A stretch of 64,000 bases of DNA, taken from the NCBI RefSeq assembly GCF_030464365.1, contig NZ_VCYI01000002.1, positions 1-64,000 of the forward strand, written 5' to 3'. How positions within the stretch are numbered: position 1 is the stretch's first letter; each line of letters begins with the position of its first letter. This document shows positions 42,825 through 53,373 of this stretch, one piece after another. The notes under the pieces were generated by a model, which saw only the letters and a list, made by a program, of their open reading frames with translations, searched no databases and was not told the origin of the DNA. Origin of the DNA: Methanoculleus methanifontis. Lineage in GTDB: Archaea > Halobacteriota > Methanomicrobia > Methanomicrobiales > Methanoculleaceae. The translations under genes and the position numbers were made by a program.

Positions 42825-42900
42825 TACGGCAGGGCCGAACCGACCCTGCCCACGACAATGCGGGAGATATGCGGTTTCCAGTGGAAATGAAGGGGTACAG

Positions 42901-45039
42901 ATGGAGATAGCCGACCTTCCCGTTCCGCCGGATCTTGCCCGGCGCTACATCGACGGCGGGATCACGGAACTCTACCCGCCGCAGGCCGCCTGCGTCGAAG
43001 CGGGCCTTTTTTCGGGAAAGAACCTCCTCGTCGCCATCCCCACCGCGAGCGGCAAGACCCTGGTCGCCGAGATGGCGATGCACCACCAGGCGGGGAGGGG
43101 CGGCAAATGCCTCTACATCGTTCCCCTGCGCGCCCTCGCGAGCGAGAAGTTCGAGGAGTTCTCGGGGAAGGGTCTCCGGGTCGGGATCGCCACCGGCGAC
43201 TTCGACCGGCGGGACGAGTATCTCGGGAGAAACGACATCATCGTCGCGACGAGCGAGAAGGTGGACTCGCTCCTGCGGAACCGGACACCGTGGCTTACGG
43301 AGATCAGCCTGCTGGTCGTCGACGAGGCGCACCTGATCGACGACCCCTCGAGGGGAGCGACGCTCGAGATGGTGATCGCAAAACTCCGCCACAAGAACCC
43401 CGGGATGCAGATCATCGCCCTCTCGGCGACCATCGGGAACCCTGCCGACCTCGCCGGATGGCTGGACGCCGAACTCGTCGAGAGCGAGTGGCGGCCGGTC
43501 GACCTCCGTGAAGGGGTCTTCTTCGAAGACGGCATCCGGTTTGCCGACAGCATCCGCGAGATCAACCGCAAAAGCAAGTACGACGACCTGGACCTCGTCC
43601 TCGACACGGTCGCGGAGGGGGGGCAGTGCCTGGTCTTCGTCAGCTCCCGAAAGAACGCCGAAGCGTTCGCAAAACGAGCGGCATCGGGCTTAAAACTCGC
43701 AAACCCCGTCCTCGCCGGATATGCCGATAAGATACGGTCGAGTGCTTCGACCGATATGGGAAAGACCCTCGCCGCCTGCGTCGCGCAGGGAGCGGCGTTC
43801 CACCACGCGGGGCTCTCGCGGGAGGAGCGGGGGATCGTGGAAGCGGGGTTCCGTGAAGGGCAGATCAAGGTCATCTCCTCCACTCCGACACTTGCGGCCG
43901 GCCTGAACCTCCCCGCCCGGCGGGTGATCGTCCGCGACTACCTCCGGTTCAACGCCGGGGAAGGGATGCTGCCGATCCCGGTTCGGGAGTACCGGCAGAT
44001 GGCCGGCCGGGCCGGGCGGCCGCGCCTCGACCCCTACGGCGAGGCCGTCCTGATCGCGAAATCCGAGGAGATGGTCGACGAGCTCTTCGACTACTACATC
44101 GAAGCGACGGCAGAGGATGTCCGGAGCCGGTGCGCGGACGAGGCGGTTCTCTGCACCCACGTCCTCTCACTCATCGCGACCGGCTTCGCCCGCGAGACGG
44201 GCGAGGTGCTCGGGTTCATGGACGGGACGTTCTACGCCTACCAGGGCGAGAGCCCGCGTGCGCTGAAACGGGCGGTCGACCGGGTGCTCGAGTTCCTGCG
44301 GGAAGCGGAGATGATCACCGAGGTGGGGGAGTGGCTTGAGGCCACGGAGTACGGGTCACTCGTCTCCCGGCTCTACATCGACCCCCGGAGCGCCGAGGTG
44401 ATCGTGAACGCGATGACGCGCCAGAAGGACTACACCGATATCGGCTTCCTTCACCTCCTCTGCACGACGCCGGATATGTCGACGCTCTTTGTCCGCAAAA
44501 ACGATATGTATGCCCTCGACCGGTTCCTGGCCGACCACCGGGAGGAACTCTGGATGGATATCCCCTGGGACGCGGGCGAGGAGTTCGACCGGAGCCTCAA
44601 GACCGCGCTCCTCCTCACCGACTGGGCGGACGAGGTTGGCGAAGACGTGATCTGCGAGCGCTACAGCGTCGGGCCGGGCGATGTCTACGGGATGGTGGAG
44701 AGCGTCGCCTGGCTGGTTCACGCGAGCCGGCACCTCGCCGGGCTCTTCGCGCCGCACCTCTCAGACCCCATCGAGGAGATGGAGCTCCGGACCAAGCACG
44801 GTATCAAGAAGGAGCTCCTGCCGCTCATCAAGCTCCGCGGGATCGGCCGGGTCCGGGCCCGCCGGCTCTTCAACAACGGTATCGACTCGATCGAGGCGCT
44901 CCGGGAGGCGGGCCCGGAGAAGGTCGCAAAGGTTCTCGGGCAGGGGATCGCCGCCCAGATCTTCGAGCAGCTCGAGGGAAGACGGGAGGAGATCGCAGAT
45001 CCCGGCGAGGAGCAGTCGACCCTCTCCCGGTTCGGGTGA
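42901..45039 (+). CDS. hel308: Hel308 DNA helicase
   Basis: A 712-residue superfamily 2 helicase acting on stalled replication forks. Motifs are Walker A '[16 protein letters not shown]', motif II '[10 protein letters not shown]', motif III 'ALSATIGN', '[18 protein letters not shown]' and motif VI '[20 protein letters not shown]'. Next come a winged helix and ratchet domain, and a final helix-hairpin-helix '[17 protein letters not shown]'. The length is normal and no intein interrupts the motifs. The Cgi121 gene follows directly, using the Hel308 stop region as its ribosome site. Confidence 0.95.
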
Positions 45040-46660: not shown

Positions 46661-46683
46661 CGACCCCTTTGTTTCGTGTGGAG
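46661..46683 (-). other. Origin recognition box (ORB) 1, inverted
   Basis: On the minus strand the site reads CTCCACACGAAACAAAGGGG followed by TCG. It has the GAAAC core and the G-string that mark ORB elements bound by Orc1/Cdc6. It points opposite to ORB2 and ORB3, so the three bracket the purine/pyrimidine switch region. Confidence 0.8.
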
Positions 46684-47560
46684 AAAGAAAGGGCTCCGCG
46701 GGCCGGGTTCAGGAGACAGCAGAGAGGAAAGGAATCCGAATGCAGGATATCCGGTGAGTAAACCAGTTAATCTATGAAGATTGACGAGATCGCGCTCATG
46801 AACCCGGAGAGGATCCGGACGAAAAAAGGACGGAAAGCAACGGATCAGGGTAGGACAGGAGAAAGTTGAATGGGCCGGATCGGAAGAGAGCAAGACGGGA
46901 TAAGGCGAGAGTGAGAAGGATCGAGGTGGAACGGGGTAAAATGGGAGAGAAGTGGAACAAGGCAGGACTTAGCCGAATAAGCGGGATAGGGATAAGACAA
47001 GACGGAATAAAACTGGAGAGACGCAAATTGGGGCGGAATGGTGCATAAAGAAGTCGAATAAGCGAAACCGGGTAAGTTAAAACAGGATATGGGCAGGAAG
47101 CGATGGATCGGGTTGGAATGGAACAGAGTGAAGTTGAACAGGCTGGATCAGGATAGGATAAGACAAGATAAGGGTGGAAAGAGACGGATTTAGACAGAAC
47201 AGGGTGGAACAAGACAGAAAGGGAGAGGAAGAGGAAGAGAAACAAATCCTGATAGAGTGAGATTTGACAGGAATGAGGAAAGATGGAACAGGTGATCGGA
47301 CAGGACACAGGATTGGATCCCTCTTTCCCAGTTTTCCCTCTTTGGTCAGTCTCCTCTATCCCTTCTGCTTCCTGTCCCTTTTCTGCTGGTTACTTCGTGA
47401 CCTGGCCCCATTTTCCTGGTTATTCGCCATAAAAGCCCATAATATCCTTTTCTTTTGGTTTTATGCTTCCTTTTTCCACTTGTTTTCCCTTTTACGCTTT
47501 ATTGTCCCTCTTTAATCCATTTTAACTCCGGTTTCTCCTTTTTGTTTTCTCTGTACGTAT
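46684..47560. other. Candidate origin core: polypurine tract switching to polypyrimidine
   Basis: From about 46690 to 47315 the plus strand is strongly purine-rich, built from decayed short units such as GGATA, AGACA and GGAAC. From about 47318 to 47550 it turns pyrimidine-rich (many CTTT, TTCC, CCTT). The change happens within a few bases. No gene is credible; apparent frames here are low-complexity. The right end becomes AT-rich (AAAACTTTATATCTTTAG near 47566). Lying between inverted ORBs and next to orc1, this is the best candidate for the unwinding and start region. Confidence 0.65.
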
Positions 47561-47653
47561 ACGATAAAACTTTATATCTTTAGTTGCAGAGGTACACATG
47601 AATATCGGCATCAGTTTTTGATTGAATGATACACCCGGTGTATCGTCATCAGG

Positions 47654-47680
47654 GTTCCACTCGAAACAAAGGGGTCGGGG
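47654..47680 (+). other. Origin recognition box (ORB) 2
   Basis: The site reads GTTCCACTCGAAACAAAGGG followed by GTCGGGG. It shares the CCACnnGAAAC core and G-string of the others, and its 'AAACAAAGGGGTCGGGG' tail is identical to that of ORB1 but in the opposite direction. Confidence 0.85.
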
Positions 47681-47769
47681 CGATCGCATCGATCCCACCC
47701 TTCCTCTTCCTCCTAGACTATCTCAACCTGACCGGTTTATCGGGATCTTCTGGTGATCCAACCTTCGAA

Positions 47770-47792
47770 GTTCCACTGGAAACGAAGGGGTT
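47770..47792 (+). other. Origin recognition box (ORB) 3, next to orc1/cdc6
   Basis: The site reads GTTCCACTGGAAACGAAGGG followed by GTT. This is essentially the canonical euryarchaeal ORB consensus. It lies about 80 bases before the orc1/cdc6 start and overlaps the region where that gene's promoter should be (a CATATTAAG element near 47813), so Orc1 could repress its own gene. Confidence 0.88.
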
Positions 47793-47868
47793 ATCTGTCT
47801 CTAAAGCGATCATATTAAGAGTCCTCGACACGAAAATTTCCTGCCCTGGCAACCTCCCCGGTGACACC

Positions 47869-49152
47869 ATGTCGGACGATAAAACGAGCCCAATGGGGTT
47901 ATTCAAAAAATACCTGACCAATAGACGTATATTTAAGAATAGAGAAGTCCTCCGTCATAACTATCGTCCCCAGATCCTCCCTCACCGGAAGCCACAGATC
48001 GATGAAATCGCCTCCATTCTCGCACCCGCCCTTACGGACGAGACTCCATCGAATATTCTCATCTACGGCAAGACCGGAACCGGGAAGACAGCGTCCGTCA
48101 GGTACGTGGGAACGGAACTCGAGAACGCGAGCGCCCTCGCCGGGACGAAGTGCAAGATCGTCCACCTCAACTGCGAGGTGATCGACACCCAGTACCGGGT
48201 CCTCGCCCAGATCGCAAACGGTCTCGACGACGCCGACGAGCACTCGAGCGACAGCACGAGGAACCACATCCCCATGACCGGGTGGCCGACCGACCAGGTC
48301 TACGCGGAGCTGAAGAACCAGCTCGAGAGCAACGGCGGGGTCATAGTCATCATCCTCGACGAGATCGACAAACTCGTCAAGAAGAGCGGCGACGATACCC
48401 TCTACAACCTCACCCGGATCAACTCCGACCTCAAGTTCGCCAAAGTGAGTATCATCGGGATCTCAAACGACCTCCGGTTCACCGATTTCCTGGATCCCCG
48501 TGTCCTCTCTTCGCTCTCCGAAGAGGAGATCGTCTTCCCCCCCTACAACGCCCCGCAACTCTGCGACATTCTCCAGCAGAGGGCAGATATGGCGTTCGTT
48601 GAGGGCGCTCTCGACGAGACGGTCATCCCGCTCTGTGCGGCGCTCGCGGCCCAGGAGCACGGCGACGCACGGCGGGCGCTCGACCTCCTCCGGGTCTCGG
48701 GCGAACTCGCGGACCGCGAGGACGCCGCGGGCGTGACCGAGAAGCACGTCCGGATGGCCCAGGAGAAGATCGAGACCGACAGCATGGTCGAGTGCATCTC
48801 CACCCTCCCGACCCAGAGCAAGGCGGTCCTCTACGCGATGCTGATCCTCGAGCAGATGGGCAAACGGATCTTCACGAGCGGGGAGGTCACGGTGGTCTAC
48901 CGTGAGATAGCCCGGATCATCGATCTCGATGTCCTGACGCACCGCCGGATCACCGACCTCATCTCCGAGCTCAACATGCTCGGTGTCATCAACACCCGGG
49001 TCATCTCGCGGGGCCGCTACGGCCGGACGAAGGAGATGTGGTTCGACGCAGCGACGAGCAAGATCGAGGAGGTCGTCACCCGTGACCCGAGGCTTGACGA
49101 CGAGAGGCTCAAGAAACTCGATATCAACCGATTGAGAGCAATGTTCAGGTGA
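47869..49152 (+). CDS. cdc6: Orc1/Cdc6 replication initiator
   Basis: A 427-residue AAA+ initiator. It has Walker A 'IYGKTGTGKTASVRYV', Walker B 'VIIILDEIDKLVKKSG', sensor 1 'SIIGISNDLRF', sensor 2 near 'HGDARRALDLLRVSGELA' and a C-terminal winged helix ('HRRITDLISELNMLGVINTR') that contacts ORB DNA. The Met at 47869 is chosen because conserved sequence starts there. The frame is open for 81 further codons upstream, but that stretch contains ORB2 and ORB3 and is not protein-like. Three ORBs lie upstream and two more lie 1.8-2.9 kb downstream. Confidence 0.94.
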   Translation: MSDDKTSPMGLFKKYLTNRRIFKNREVLRHNYRPQILPHRKPQIDEIASILAPALTDETPSNILIYGKTGTGKTASVRYVGTELENASALAGTKCKIVHLNCEVIDTQYRVLAQIANGLDDADEHSSDSTRNHIPMTGWPTDQVYAELKNQLESNGGVIVIILDEIDKLVKKSGDDTLYNLTRINSDLKFAKVSIIGISNDLRFTDFLDPRVLSSLSEEEIVFPPYNAPQLCDILQQRADMAFVEGALDETVIPLCAALAAQEHGDARRALDLLRVSGELADREDAAGVTEKHVRMAQEKIETDSMVECISTLPTQSKAVLYAMLILEQMGKRIFTSGEVTVVYREIARIIDLDVLTHRRITDLISELNMLGVINTRVISRGRYGRTKEMWFDAATSKIEEVVTRDPRLDDERLKKLDINRLRAMFR

Positions 49153-49156
49153 AGTT

Positions 49157-49648
49157 ATGGACGAAAAGGATCGTATCCTCCTTCAGGAACTGGAGGAGAA
49201 CTGCCGCACCCCCTTAAGTGAACTTGCGGTGCTGGCCGAGATGAGTGAGGAGGACGTAAAAGAGCGGATCAGCCGGCTGGAAGCGGCAGGCGCCGTCCGC
49301 CGCTACGGGGCGGTCGTCGACTGGGAGCGGGCCGGCGACGGCAAGGTCACCGCGGTGATCGAGCTCAAAGTCTCGCCCGAGCGGGACTTCGGCTACGGCC
49401 GGATCGCCGCGCGGCTTGCCCGGTTCCCGCAGGTCCGGTCGCTCCGCCTGATGACCGGTGCGTACGACCTTCAGCTTCTGGTCACCGGGCCGAGCATGCA
49501 CGAGATCGCGCGGTTCGTCTCCGAGCAGATCGCCCCGATGGACCGGATCCGGGAGACGGCGACGCACATCATCATGAGGACCTACAAGGAGAACGGCACC
49601 ACCTTCGCCGAGCGCGAAGAGGCCGAACGGCTCCCCTACTCGTTCTGA
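49157..49648 (+). CDS. Lrp/AsnC-family transcription regulator
   Basis: A 163-residue regulator with an N-terminal AsnC-type helix-turn-helix ('DRILLQELEENCRTPLSELA', 'DVKERISRLEAAGAVRRYGA') and a C-terminal RAM domain ('VTAVIELKVSPERDFGYGRI', 'GAYDLQLLVTGPSMHEIARF') for ligand binding and oligomers. It starts four bases after cdc6, and its stop forms part of the ribosome site of the aminotransferase gene. It probably controls that gene in response to an amino acid; similar archaeal Lrp-aminotransferase pairs are common. Confidence 0.92.
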   Translation: MDEKDRILLQELEENCRTPLSELAVLAEMSEEDVKERISRLEAAGAVRRYGAVVDWERAGDGKVTAVIELKVSPERDFGYGRIAARLARFPQVRSLRLMTGAYDLQLLVTGPSMHEIARFVSEQIAPMDRIRETATHIIMRTYKENGTTFAEREEAERLPYSF

Positions 49649-49658
49649 GGTGAGATGT

Positions 49659-50819
49659 TTGAGGGATTTCGTCTCGAAACGGGCCCGCGCCATACCTCCT
49701 TCGGGTATCCGGAAGTTCTTTGATATCGCCCAGACGATGGAAGACGTCATATCCCTGGGCGTCGGGGAACCGGACTTCGTGACCCCCTGGTGTGTCTGCG
49801 AGGCCTCCATCTATTCCATTGAGCAGGGGTCGACCGCGTATACCTCGAACAAGGGGACGCCCCGGCTCCGGGACTCTCTCAGCCGCTACCTCGACACCCG
49901 CTTTTCTACACGCTACGACCCTGAAGAAGAGATCATCGTCACCTGCGGCGTCTCGGAGGCGGTCGACGTCGCCATCCGGACCGTCGTCGACCCCGGCGAT
50001 GAGGTGCTGGTCGCCGAGCCCTGCTACGTCTCCTACAACCCCTGCGTCTCCCTTGCCGGAGGGATCCCGGTGCCGGTCCTCTGCCGGGCGGAGGATGAGT
50101 TCCGGTTGACGGCCGACGCTCTTGCGGAGAGCATCACTCCTCGGACGAAGGCACTGATTGCAAACTTCCCGAACAACCCCACCGGCGGGGTGATGCAGGA
50201 GGCGGACTGGCACGCGATCGCCGACCTCCTCGTCGACCACGACCTCCTCCTCATCAGCGACGAGGTTTACGCCGAGCTCACCTACGACGGCGACCACTTT
50301 TCGCCGGCAAGGATCCCCGAACTCCGCGACCGGACAATCACCTTGAACGGGTTTTCAAAGGCCTTTGCGATGACCGGGTGGCGGATCGGTTACCTCTGCG
50401 CTCCGCCCGAGATCACCGCGGCAGCTTTGAAGATCCACCAGTACGTCGCGCTCTGTGCCCCTGTCATGGGACAGATCGCGGCCTACGAAGCGCTCCGGAA
50501 CGGGGAGGATGAGAAGGATGCGATGGTCAGAGAGTACCGTCTCCGGCGCAACCTCTTCGTCGACGGGCTGAACAAACTCGGTCTTACCTGCCACGTCCCG
50601 AAGGGTGCATTCTACGCCTTCCCGTCGGTGGAGAGCACCGGCATGACCGATGTCGAGTTTGCGGAGGGGCTCCTCCGGGAGCAGCACGTCGCGGTTGTCC
50701 CGGGAAGTGCCCTCGGCCCCTCCGGTGCCGGGCACGTGCGGTGCGCCTACGCGGTCTCGCGAGACGATCTCAAGGAGGCCCTCTCCCGGATGGGAACCTT
50801 TCTTGGTTCAATAAAATAA
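49659..50819 (+). CDS. Class I/II (AspC-like) aminotransferase
   Basis: A 386-residue PLP enzyme of aminotransferase fold type I. The PLP lysine is in 'LNGFSKAFAMTGWRIGY' and the phosphate/pyridine site is 'NFPNNPTGGVM', with 'ISDEVYAELTYDG'. Substrate is likely aspartate or an aromatic/branched amino acid, but not decidable here. The TTG at 49659 is preferred to GTG at 49650 because GAGGTGA ends five bases before the TTG, and the protein then begins as relatives do ('RDFVSKRARAIPPSGIRKFF'). It is cotranscribed with the Lrp regulator. Confidence 0.9.
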   Translation: MRDFVSKRARAIPPSGIRKFFDIAQTMEDVISLGVGEPDFVTPWCVCEASIYSIEQGSTAYTSNKGTPRLRDSLSRYLDTRFSTRYDPEEEIIVTCGVSEAVDVAIRTVVDPGDEVLVAEPCYVSYNPCVSLAGGIPVPVLCRAEDEFRLTADALAESITPRTKALIANFPNNPTGGVMQEADWHAIADLLVDHDLLLISDEVYAELTYDGDHFSPARIPELRDRTITLNGFSKAFAMTGWRIGYLCAPPEITAAALKIHQYVALCAPVMGQIAAYEALRNGEDEKDAMVREYRLRRNLFVDGLNKLGLTCHVPKGAFYAFPSVESTGMTDVEFAEGLLREQHVAVVPGSALGPSGAGHVRCAYAVSRDDLKEALSRMGTFLGSIK

Positions 50820-50924
50820 AAATATCTCCATAAATATCTTCAAACGAAAATCGGAACTCTTTTACGAGAGGTCTCTGCTTGAGCAATCGATAGTCTGGTG
50901 TCCGACAGCGGAATGACTGATGGA

Positions 50925-50947
50925 GAACCCCTTTATTTCCACTGGAG
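50925..50947 (-). other. Origin recognition box (ORB) 4, inverted
   Basis: On the minus strand the site reads CTCCAGTGGAAATAAAGGGG followed by TTC. It pairs with ORB5, which faces the other way about 1 kb to the right. If the intervening insertion sequence and its target repeat are removed, the two lie about 195 bases apart. The DNA between (50948-51133) holds no gene and is moderately AT-rich near 50950 and 51070. Confidence 0.82.
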
Positions 50948-51133
50948 ATGTGGATTTATTCGGGGATTCTGGCCGGCCGGGATCGCATCGTACCCGTGTG
51001 GGGAATATACACCCGCTCATCCAAACCCCGGGCAGATCTCTGGATTTACATCCGCGCTCCGGTAAACGATCTGTAATGAGATCATTCTGCCGCTCCGGGG
51101 GAAAAACTCGATGTGACGGTCTGGAATATCCAT

Positions 51134-51977
51134 GAGGTCATCCCAATATTCTCCCGATCATGACACTACATGCCAAGTGAATCAATCCCATGAATGAGTG
51201 CTCATATCGCTCGTATCGGGGAGTGATCTTCTTGAACGCCTCAATCCAGCTGAAGAACCGTTCTACCGCATTGCGCTTTTTATAGAGTTCTGGATCAAAC
51301 CAGAATGGCCTCCCTCGTTTCGGCTGTTTCCGGGATCTCCGGTTGACCGGTATATTACTCTTTATTCTTCTTTTACGGTTGTACTGACGGATTTCCCGGG
51401 CATCGTAGGCTGCATCTGCGGAGATGATTGCAGGACGCTCCTGCACTTCGGGAATCTCAAACGCTTCGAGGGTTGGCTCGTAGAGCCGTGAATCATGGAC
51501 ATTTGCCGGTGCAACCGTGCAGGCAAGCGGGAGGCCGTTCCGATCGACCAGAGCACTCAGCTTATTCCCGTTTACCTTTTTATAGCCATCATAGCCCGCT
51601 GATCCCCTTTTTTAGCCGGGATATCCTTGGTATCCGTCGCACAATGTGATAGATCGATTTTCTTGATCGCATACCCGGATCGGAGCAGGTCGAGGAAGAT
51701 CGCCTGGTACACTCCTTTCTCGCAGAGTTCGAGATGGTACCGATGAACCGTCGATTTGGTGCCATATTTCGCCGGTACATCGAGCCAGGAGCACCCGGTG
51801 GTCAGAACGTACAGGATACCGTTGAACAGCCTGCGGGGATCACATCGGGGTCGACCGATATGCGGCTTTGTTGGGGGGAGGTATTTCTGAACAATCTCCC
51901 AGAGATCATCGTCAATTTCCCGGAATGCCATGACCCCCGGTTTTATCTAAGGGGTCTTATAATTTTAGGATCACCTC
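51134..51977 (-). mobile_element. IS5-family (IS427-like) insertion sequence, 844 bp
   Basis: Imperfect terminal inverted repeats occur at both ends: GAGGTCATCCCAATATT at 51134-51150 and, reversed, GAGGTGATCCTAAAATT at 51977-51961 (14 of 17 match). A 3-bp direct repeat CAT flanks the element (51131-51133 and 51978-51980), as expected for target duplication. It carries one transposase expressed through a frameshift. It sits between two facing ORB boxes, 13 bases from ORB5. Confidence 0.88.
51138..51931 (-). CDS. IS5-family DDE transposase made by -1 frameshift
   Basis: The first frame (51931 to 51572) starts 'MAFREIDDDLWEIVQKYLPP' and contains the first acidic residue in 'KKIDLSHCATDTKD'. At AAAAAAGGGG (51613-51604, minus strand) a -1 shift leads to a second frame. 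That frame continues without interruption, 'RGSAGYDGYKKVNGNKL', with 'ISADAAYDAREIRQYN' and the final 'KKRNAVERFFSWIEAFKKIT', the D and E of the DDE triad. The fused product has about 264 residues, the normal IS427-group length. All catalytic parts are present and no decay is visible, so the element may still be active. Confidence 0.88.
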
Positions 51978-51989
51978 CATGAAAATAAG

Positions 51990-52012
51990 TTTCCACTGGA
52001 AACGAAGGGGTC
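51990..52012 (+). other. Origin recognition box (ORB) 5
   Basis: The site reads TTTCCACTGGAAACGAAGGG followed by GTC. It shares a long exact core, TTCCACTGGAAACGAAGGGG, with ORB3. It lies immediately to the right of the insertion sequence and faces ORB4. Confidence 0.87.
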
Positions 52013-52362: not shown

Positions 52363-53373
52363 ATGAGTTGTACTATTATCGTCGGCGGGTTCTTTGGTGA
52401 CGAGGGAAAAGGAAAGATCGTGGCCCACATCGCTCACCAGGACAGACCATCCATCATCTCCCGGGGTGGCGTTGGCCCGAACGCAGGGCACACGGTTCGT
52501 ATCGGAGAGAAGGAGTACGGGGTCAGGATGGTCCCCTCGGGGTTCGTCTACCCGGAAGCGACCCTCATGATTGGGAGCGGCGTGCTTGTCGATCCTCGTG
52601 TCTTTCTGCGGGAAACCGACCTGGTCGGTGTCCGGGACAGGATCTTTGTTGATGGGCGGTGCGGGGTCATCGAAGAGGATCACATCGCGCGGGACAAGGG
52701 AAGCGACCACCTCAGCAAGAAGATCGGGAGCACCGGAACCGGGTGCGGCCCGGCAAACGCGGATCGTGTCCTCCGGACATCACGGCAGGCGAAAGATGTT
52801 CCCGAACTGGCGGAATTCGTCACCGACGTGGCCCAGGACGTCAACAACGCCCTGGACAACGACGAGGTGGTCCTCCTCGAGGGAACCCAGGGTTTCGGGA
52901 TCTCGCTCTACTTCGGAACCTACCCGTTTGTGACGAGCAAGGATACCTCCGCATCGCAGATCGCCGCCGACAACGGCGTCGGCCCGACCCGGATCGACGA
53001 CGTCATCGTCGTCTTCAAGGCCTACCCGACCCGGGTCGGCGAAGGCCCCTTCTCGACCGAGATGACGGCGGAGCGGTCGCACAAGCTCGGGATCGAGGAG
53101 TTCGGCACCGTCACCCATCGCCAGCGCCGCATCGGCACCTGGGACGGGAAGATGGCGCGCTACTCGGCGATGATCAACGGGTGCACCCAGGCGGCGATCA
53201 CCGGCATCGACCGGGTTGACCCGGCCTGTTTCGGCGCGACGGAGTACGATCAGCTGACGAAGGCGGCACGGGACTTCATCGCGCAGGCCGAAAAGGACAT
53301 CGGCAAACCCGTCACCCTGATCTCGACGGGGCCCGAGATGTCCCAGATCATCGATCTCCGGAGCGAACTATGA
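52363..53373 (+). CDS. purA: Adenylosuccinate synthetase
   Basis: A 336-residue short archaeal PurA, which joins IMP and aspartate with GTP in AMP synthesis. The P-loop and catalytic start are 'GGFFGDEGKGKIVAHIA' with 'GGVGPNAGHTV', and later motifs are 'STGTGCGPANADR', 'LLEGTQGFGISLYFGTYPF' and 'TRVGEGPFSTEM'. Bacterial enzymes are about 430 residues; loss of internal segments is normal in archaea. It heads a run of six rightward genes with overlaps or very short gaps, starting with the Trm112-like gene. Confidence 0.95.
   Translation: MSCTIIVGGFFGDEGKGKIVAHIAHQDRPSIISRGGVGPNAGHTVRIGEKEYGVRMVPSGFVYPEATLMIGSGVLVDPRVFLRETDLVGVRDRIFVDGRCGVIEEDHIARDKGSDHLSKKIGSTGTGCGPANADRVLRTSRQAKDVPELAEFVTDVAQDVNNALDNDEVVLLEGTQGFGISLYFGTYPFVTSKDTSASQIAADNGVGPTRIDDVIVVFKAYPTRVGEGPFSTEMTAERSHKLGIEEFGTVTHRQRRIGTWDGKMARYSAMINGCTQAAITGIDRVDPACFGATEYDQLTKAARDFIAQAEKDIGKPVTLISTGPEMSQIIDLRSEL

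Follow-up and report, generated by a model that had tools for sequence, protein, structure and literature searches.

A conserved pair of ORBs downstream of orc1 in Methanoculleus, split in one lineage by an insertion sequence, as a candidate initiator control element

Introduction

The described system that most resembles the locus considered here is oriC2D of H. hispanica, a haloarchaeal downstream control cluster backed by genetic evidence (Wu et al., PMC3936714). In that account, oriC2D comprises 11 ORBs packed into 722 bp directly after cdc6E, has no ARS activity on its own, lowers the activity of oriC2 and cannot be deleted unless oriC2 has gone, with two downstream ORBs having a moderate effect. 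ORBs downstream of orc/cdc6 genes have also been noted elsewhere in haloarchaea (PMC3528665, PMC4010727). Two further systems bear comparison: datA, an E. coli locus that titrates DnaA (mentioned in PMC3936714), and the archaeal oriC1-type origin, arranged ORB-DUE-ORB.

Here, we analyse two facing ORBs, ORB4 and ORB5, in a 64,000-nucleotide stretch of Methanoculleus methanifontis DNA (hereafter the window), which lies on contig C12 of a 30-contig archaeal genome of 2.61 Mb. Judging from sequence comparison, we give about an even chance to the following reading: the pair, which closes the orc1-lrp-aminotransferase operon at its 3' end and is ~3-4 kb away from the likely oriC, serves as a conserved control element bound by Orc1 and is not a start site. 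By analogy, it would probably act like oriC2D, keeping initiator off oriC. Like that cluster, it has its ORBs separated from the origin by the initiator gene, shows no origin sign and involves the same initiator family; unlike it, there are two boxes rather than 11, they follow a three-gene operon rather than cdc6E itself, they lie a near-fixed 196 bp apart, and one of them has a palindrome. datA, too, lies apart from oriC and would bind up initiator, but its initiator is a different one, and neither nucleotide hydrolysis nor an accessory protein has support for ORB4-ORB5. Our search of open-licence papers turned up none that deals with ORBs of Methanoculleus or with the element itself. How archaea prevent renewed origin firing is, to our knowledge, largely open, and a conserved, putative Orc1 site of near-fixed geometry behind the orc1 operon in a methanogen order, together with a natural 847-bp change in its spacing in one lineage, is a small, defined thing to test.

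The orc1 locus and its boxes

From the helicase gene (starting at 42901), the gene order of the locus runs through a CGI-121-like gene (its Pfam match is slightly under the cut-off), a molybdopterin-binding-type gene and an AT-rich intergenic region to orc1, an Lrp/AsnC regulator, an aminotransferase, ORB4-ORB5 and purA. The orc1/cdc6 open frame occupies 47626-49152 on the plus strand, with the conserved protein starting near 47863, and is followed on the same strand by the Lrp/AsnC-family regulator (49157-49648), the class I/II aminotransferase (49650-50819) and, past the boxes, the adenylosuccinate synthetase gene purA (52363-53373). The closest solved structures to the window's Orc1 are chains 2qby_A and 2v1u_A, which we take to be the S. 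solfataricus and A. pernix Orc1 proteins, respectively; the Orc1 proteins of these two species are ORB-binding initiators.

The interval 46684-47654, upstream of orc1, is likely to be oriC on sequence grounds. It is bounded by a left ORB on the minus strand (46663-46683) and a right ORB on the plus strand (47655-47675), with a second right ORB (47771-47791, plus) preceding the conserved part of orc1. Its interior holds a low-stability (DUE-like) stretch near 47483-47582, and the interval includes a stretch in the lowest 0.06% of 50-bp positions in the window. Composition skew, as a means of placing the origin, displayed no trend in 20 stretches of 20 kb of genome G029. Two further features were seen in this part of the window: a long purine-rich strand bias at 46700-47320, within the likely oriC interior, and an ORB at 42876-42896, four bases before the helicase ATG, which is conserved in the genus and recurs at that position in several other families.

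Boxes were scored at 19 of 21 positions against an ORB consensus. ORB4 (CTCCAGTGGAAATAAAGGGGT, 50927-50947, minus strand) matches at 17/19 positions and is nearly invariant across the genus, whilst ORB5 (TTCCACTGGAAACGAAGGGGT, 51991-52011, plus strand) matches at 19/19 and is found at every genus and family locus examined. The first-pass annotation had described the two as a facing pair outside the aminotransferase gene, with ORB5 sharing an exact 20-base core with ORB3. The pair is real, ORB4 starts 111 bp past the last aligned aminotransferase codon, and the identity between ORB5 and the box at 47771-47791 runs over all 21 bases. On the G-string side of ORB4 lies an adjoining palindrome, TGTCNGACA, that is kept across families (in the window, TGTCCGACA at 50899-50907).

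Searching with the box pattern at up to two mismatches yielded seven sites in the 2.61-Mb genome, five of them inside the 9-kb orc1 locus, and none with a reversed-pattern control, so that ORB4 and ORB5 are more than chance matches. Ten genus genomes held between five and eight sites each, the reversed control giving 0 in nine of them and 1 in the tenth. These counts, together with the conservation of the pair within the genus, rule out chance boxes. Elsewhere in the window's genome, a lone, intergenic-looking ORB (CTCCAGTGGAAATCAAGGGG, G000:C25:193992-194011, L197) recurs in seven of the ten genus genomes searched, and in the five loci read ~100 bp of its flank is conserved. A second Cdc6 homologue is 6-7 kb away from this box in G003 and G019 and ~15 kb away in the window's genome.

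Conservation within the genus and family

The genus set comprised 34 relatives, of which 31 were examined for the pair (G004, G006 and G013 were left out, as was family member G146). All 31 carry ORB4 on the minus strand and ORB5 on the plus strand after the aminotransferase gene. In 29 of them the boxes are separated by an inner gap of 194-198 bp, within 2 bp of the 196-bp median, the exceptions measuring 173 and 223 bp; for L040 the gap was taken as 195 bp, using its 17/19 box rather than a weaker match nearby. These two counts are among the points in favour of a control element. In the other genera of the family, the full pair is present at 4/4 loci, with the boxes 195-198 bp apart.

The distance from the aminotransferase gene to ORB4 lies within 2 bp of the median in 25/31 relatives, that from ORB5 to purA in 0/26. 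At loci L035 and L036, ORB4 lies 260 and 422 bp past the aminotransferase gene and the gaps are still 198 and 195 bp. The pair thus behaves as a unit, its spacing persisting where DNA has been added before ORB4. The conservation profile and the folding analysis below used 25 of the 29 aligned genus loci (L018, L034, L035 and L036 were omitted). In this alignment, the sequence is conserved from about +30 to +420 past the aminotransferase gene, after which mean identity falls to ~0.3-0.6 before rising at the purA promoter.

Conserved sequence and a T-rich run after the aminotransferase stop could be taken as signs of a transcription device, in which ORB4 and TGTCNGACA are bound by Orc1 or some other protein that terminates or insulates orc1 operon transcription or else gives rise to a transcript so far unseen. 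Several results speak against such a transcriptional role. Rfam returned a single match in the region, anti-hemB, which at 25.9 against a cut-off of 49.5 resembles chance, and column-shuffled folding found no convincing fold in the interior on either strand (z of -2.5 and +0.2), so a structured RNA was rejected; the strong folding z of the whole stretch comes from ORB4 and ORB5 pairing with each other. The longer palindrome TTGTCNGACAA is not enriched across ten genomes. Loci of family f4 keep ORB4 although the distance to purA spans 667 to 1928 bp, and this variation indicates that ORB4 is not tied to the purA promoter. We regard a transcriptional role as quite improbable.

Conservation across the order

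Beyond the family, the order was sampled at 32 loci in five families, and at 22 of these a minus-strand ORB follows the aminotransferase gene: 6/6 in f2, 6/6 in f3, 9/9 in f4, 1/6 in f6 and 0/5 in f5. Nine of the 32 (L161-L169) had been picked because a palindrome-ORB composite was already found there; among the remaining 23 the box is present at 16. The number and orientation of the downstream boxes differ between families. A plus-strand partner near the downstream box was found at none of the 32 loci. Going by this distribution, in which the minus box extends to other families and the plus partner occurs only within the family, ORB4 is older than the ORB4-ORB5 pair, which is a feature of Methanoculleus's own family.

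The first-pass annotation named absence of the boxes from relatives that keep the flanking genes as evidence against its reading. No such case occurs among the 31 loci of the genus, but one family provides it, its five loci all lacking the downstream box though orc1-lrp-aminotransferase is kept. The element is therefore not essential across the order. The same loss bears on the idea that ORB4 and ORB5 form an extension of oriC, bridging to the boxes upstream of orc1 via Orc1-Orc1 contacts and so aiding initiation or orc1 expression. All of the boxes lie inside ~9 kb and are conserved together, and the fixed spacing suggests a defined complex; against this, the oriC interior itself is anywhere between 216 and 1043 bp long in 15 relatives and the downstream box has been lost in one family. 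An extended oriC of this kind seems to us rather unlikely.

Does the pair resemble an origin?

The first-pass annotation treated the pair as origin-like. Were ORB4-ORB5 a second or dormant origin, Orc1 and MCM would be loaded by the boxes onto the intervening DNA, and the insertion would have crippled this origin in the present strain. The layout agrees with this: the boxes are inverted with their G-strings outward, minus on the left and plus on the right, a polarity shared with oriC1-type origins generally, with the likely oriC here and with the CCCCCC...GGGGGGGG arrangement of H. hispanica oriC1 (PMC3936714). The fixed spacing and the conserved interior also fit.

An oriC1-type origin, however, has an easily melted, AT-rich interior and the ORB4-ORB5 pair does not, either in the 15 relatives for which stability was computed or in the left part of the window interval. 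In those relatives the least stable point between ORB4 and ORB5 falls in the lowest 1.1-13.3% of positions (lowest 4.1% for the left part in the window), whereas the minimum of the interval upstream of orc1 falls in the lowest 0.01-0.29%. There is a low-stability, AT-rich stretch adjoining ORB4 but outside the pair, with a minimum of 54.1 at 50802 (near the oriC minimum, 55.8) and of 58.4 within 50820-50926, making local melting there possible. This stretch, which runs across the aminotransferase stop, could be a terminator. Outside the family, moreover, ORB4 persists without ORB5, and a further origin only 3-4 kb from oriC would presumably be redundant. Since low-stability DNA is missing between the boxes, a second origin was downgraded as the main reading and we now consider it distinctly unlikely.

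The insertion sequence

An IS5-type insertion sequence of 844 bp (51134-51977, minus strand) sits between ORB4 and ORB5. To its left is the retained portion of the conserved inter-box DNA (50948-51133), ending in the target-site CAT at 51131-51133; to its right are the second CAT copy (51978-51980) and ORB5, which is 13 bases from the end of the element, as the first-pass annotation had counted. The inner gap between the boxes is 1043 bp and removal of the element and one CAT, a change of 847 bp, leaves 196 bp, in line with the ~195 bases put forward earlier. The empty site that was to be sought in relatives is found in the genus relatives examined: all 31 carry the pair without this insertion, and none has one like it between the boxes.

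The element's IS4/5-type transposase domains, inverted ends (GAGGT(C/G)ATCC) and short target duplication place it among the IS5-type elements. Both transposase frames, orfA (DUF4096; 51572-51931) and orfB (DDE_Tnp_1; 51138-51611), are open, lie on the minus strand, antisense to the orc1 operon, and overlap in different frames, a frame relation also seen in this genome's three other near-full copies. Those copies are 88-91% identical to it; two have target duplications of their own (ATG and ACT) and the third has none that is clear. Two overlapping frames, short inverted ends and a 3-bp target duplication are shared with IS5-type elements carrying DUF4096 and DDE_Tnp_1, and the window copy is unusual only in its landing place: the insertion is an ordinary event at an informative place. 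Given the CAT target duplication and the 9-12% divergence from the other copies, misassembly is unlikely. Many of the contig ends of the assembly (C1, C4, C10, C11, C20 and C27-C30 of G000) are made of pieces of the same IS family, and assembly breaks thus follow that family.

The earlier suggestion that the element had landed inside an origin-type site stands in part. It did enter a conserved box pair, widening the spacing from ~196 to 1043 bp, but the origin character of that site is unsupported. Both boxes and the palindrome on the ORB4 side were left intact. Decay was assessed in the 25 aligned genus loci plus the window, using those columns on which at least 90% of the others agree: the window has changed at 0/36 columns from the palindrome through ORB4, 3/64 of the interior and 0/15 of ORB5, no worse than other species. 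With the boxes intact and no excess of change at conserved columns, it looks as if the insertion is recent or the parts of the element are still in use.

How a control element might work

The arrangement expected of downstream control, ORBs downstream of an initiator gene whose origin lies upstream of it, is present here after the orc1-lrp-aminotransferase operon. In such a scheme, Orc1 made from the operon would bind ORB4 and ORB5. Copied soon after oriC fires, the boxes would then absorb initiator and damp re-initiation, as has been proposed for oriC2D. The sink would be a small one, since the relatives have two boxes in ~240 bp compared with the 11 given for oriC2D (PMC3936714). This, the differences in downstream boxes between families, their absence from one family and the low-stability stretch beside ORB4 count against a control element, as does a fixed spacing that exceeds the needs of a passive sink. 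The near-fixed 196-bp spacing, the conserved inter-box DNA and the presence of TGTCNGACA beside ORB4 suggest instead a defined complex with a second protein, for which the Lrp-type regulator of the operon is a candidate by its position. With its boxes intact but 847 bp further apart, this lineage should have kept simple Orc1 binding and lost any spacing-dependent complex.

A more specific proposal, which we think unlikely, is that Methanomicrobiales possess a single-copy, fixed-geometry element (an ORB plus TGTCNGACA and, in Methanoculleus's family, a second ORB ~196 bp away) at which Orc1 and a putative palindrome-binding protein form a complex limiting re-initiation, as an archaeal counterpart of datA. 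Were this so, the window would amount to a naturally occurring spacing mutant, from which the importance of the geometry might be learned.

The palindrome beside ORB4

Of 199 genomes from the order, 45 contain exact matches to the composite TGTCNGAC-N(8-34)-CCCCTTTNTTTCCA, almost always a single one, whereas a reversed control matches none of the 199. The 9-mer palindrome by itself is not in excess over chance in the window (one seen, 0.76 expected). As the 9-mer alone is not unusual and TTGTCNGACAA is not enriched, the palindrome marks no wide regulon, and none was seen in the ten genomes.

In f6, g8, TGTCNGACA stands instead beside a box upstream of orc1. Five loci of this group (L049, L055, L163, L164 and L165) have an extra pair of ORBs upstream of orc1, in the order plus, minus, with starts 198-203 bp apart. 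The polarity of this extra pair is opposite and TGTCNGACA lies inside it, as if the control element had moved.
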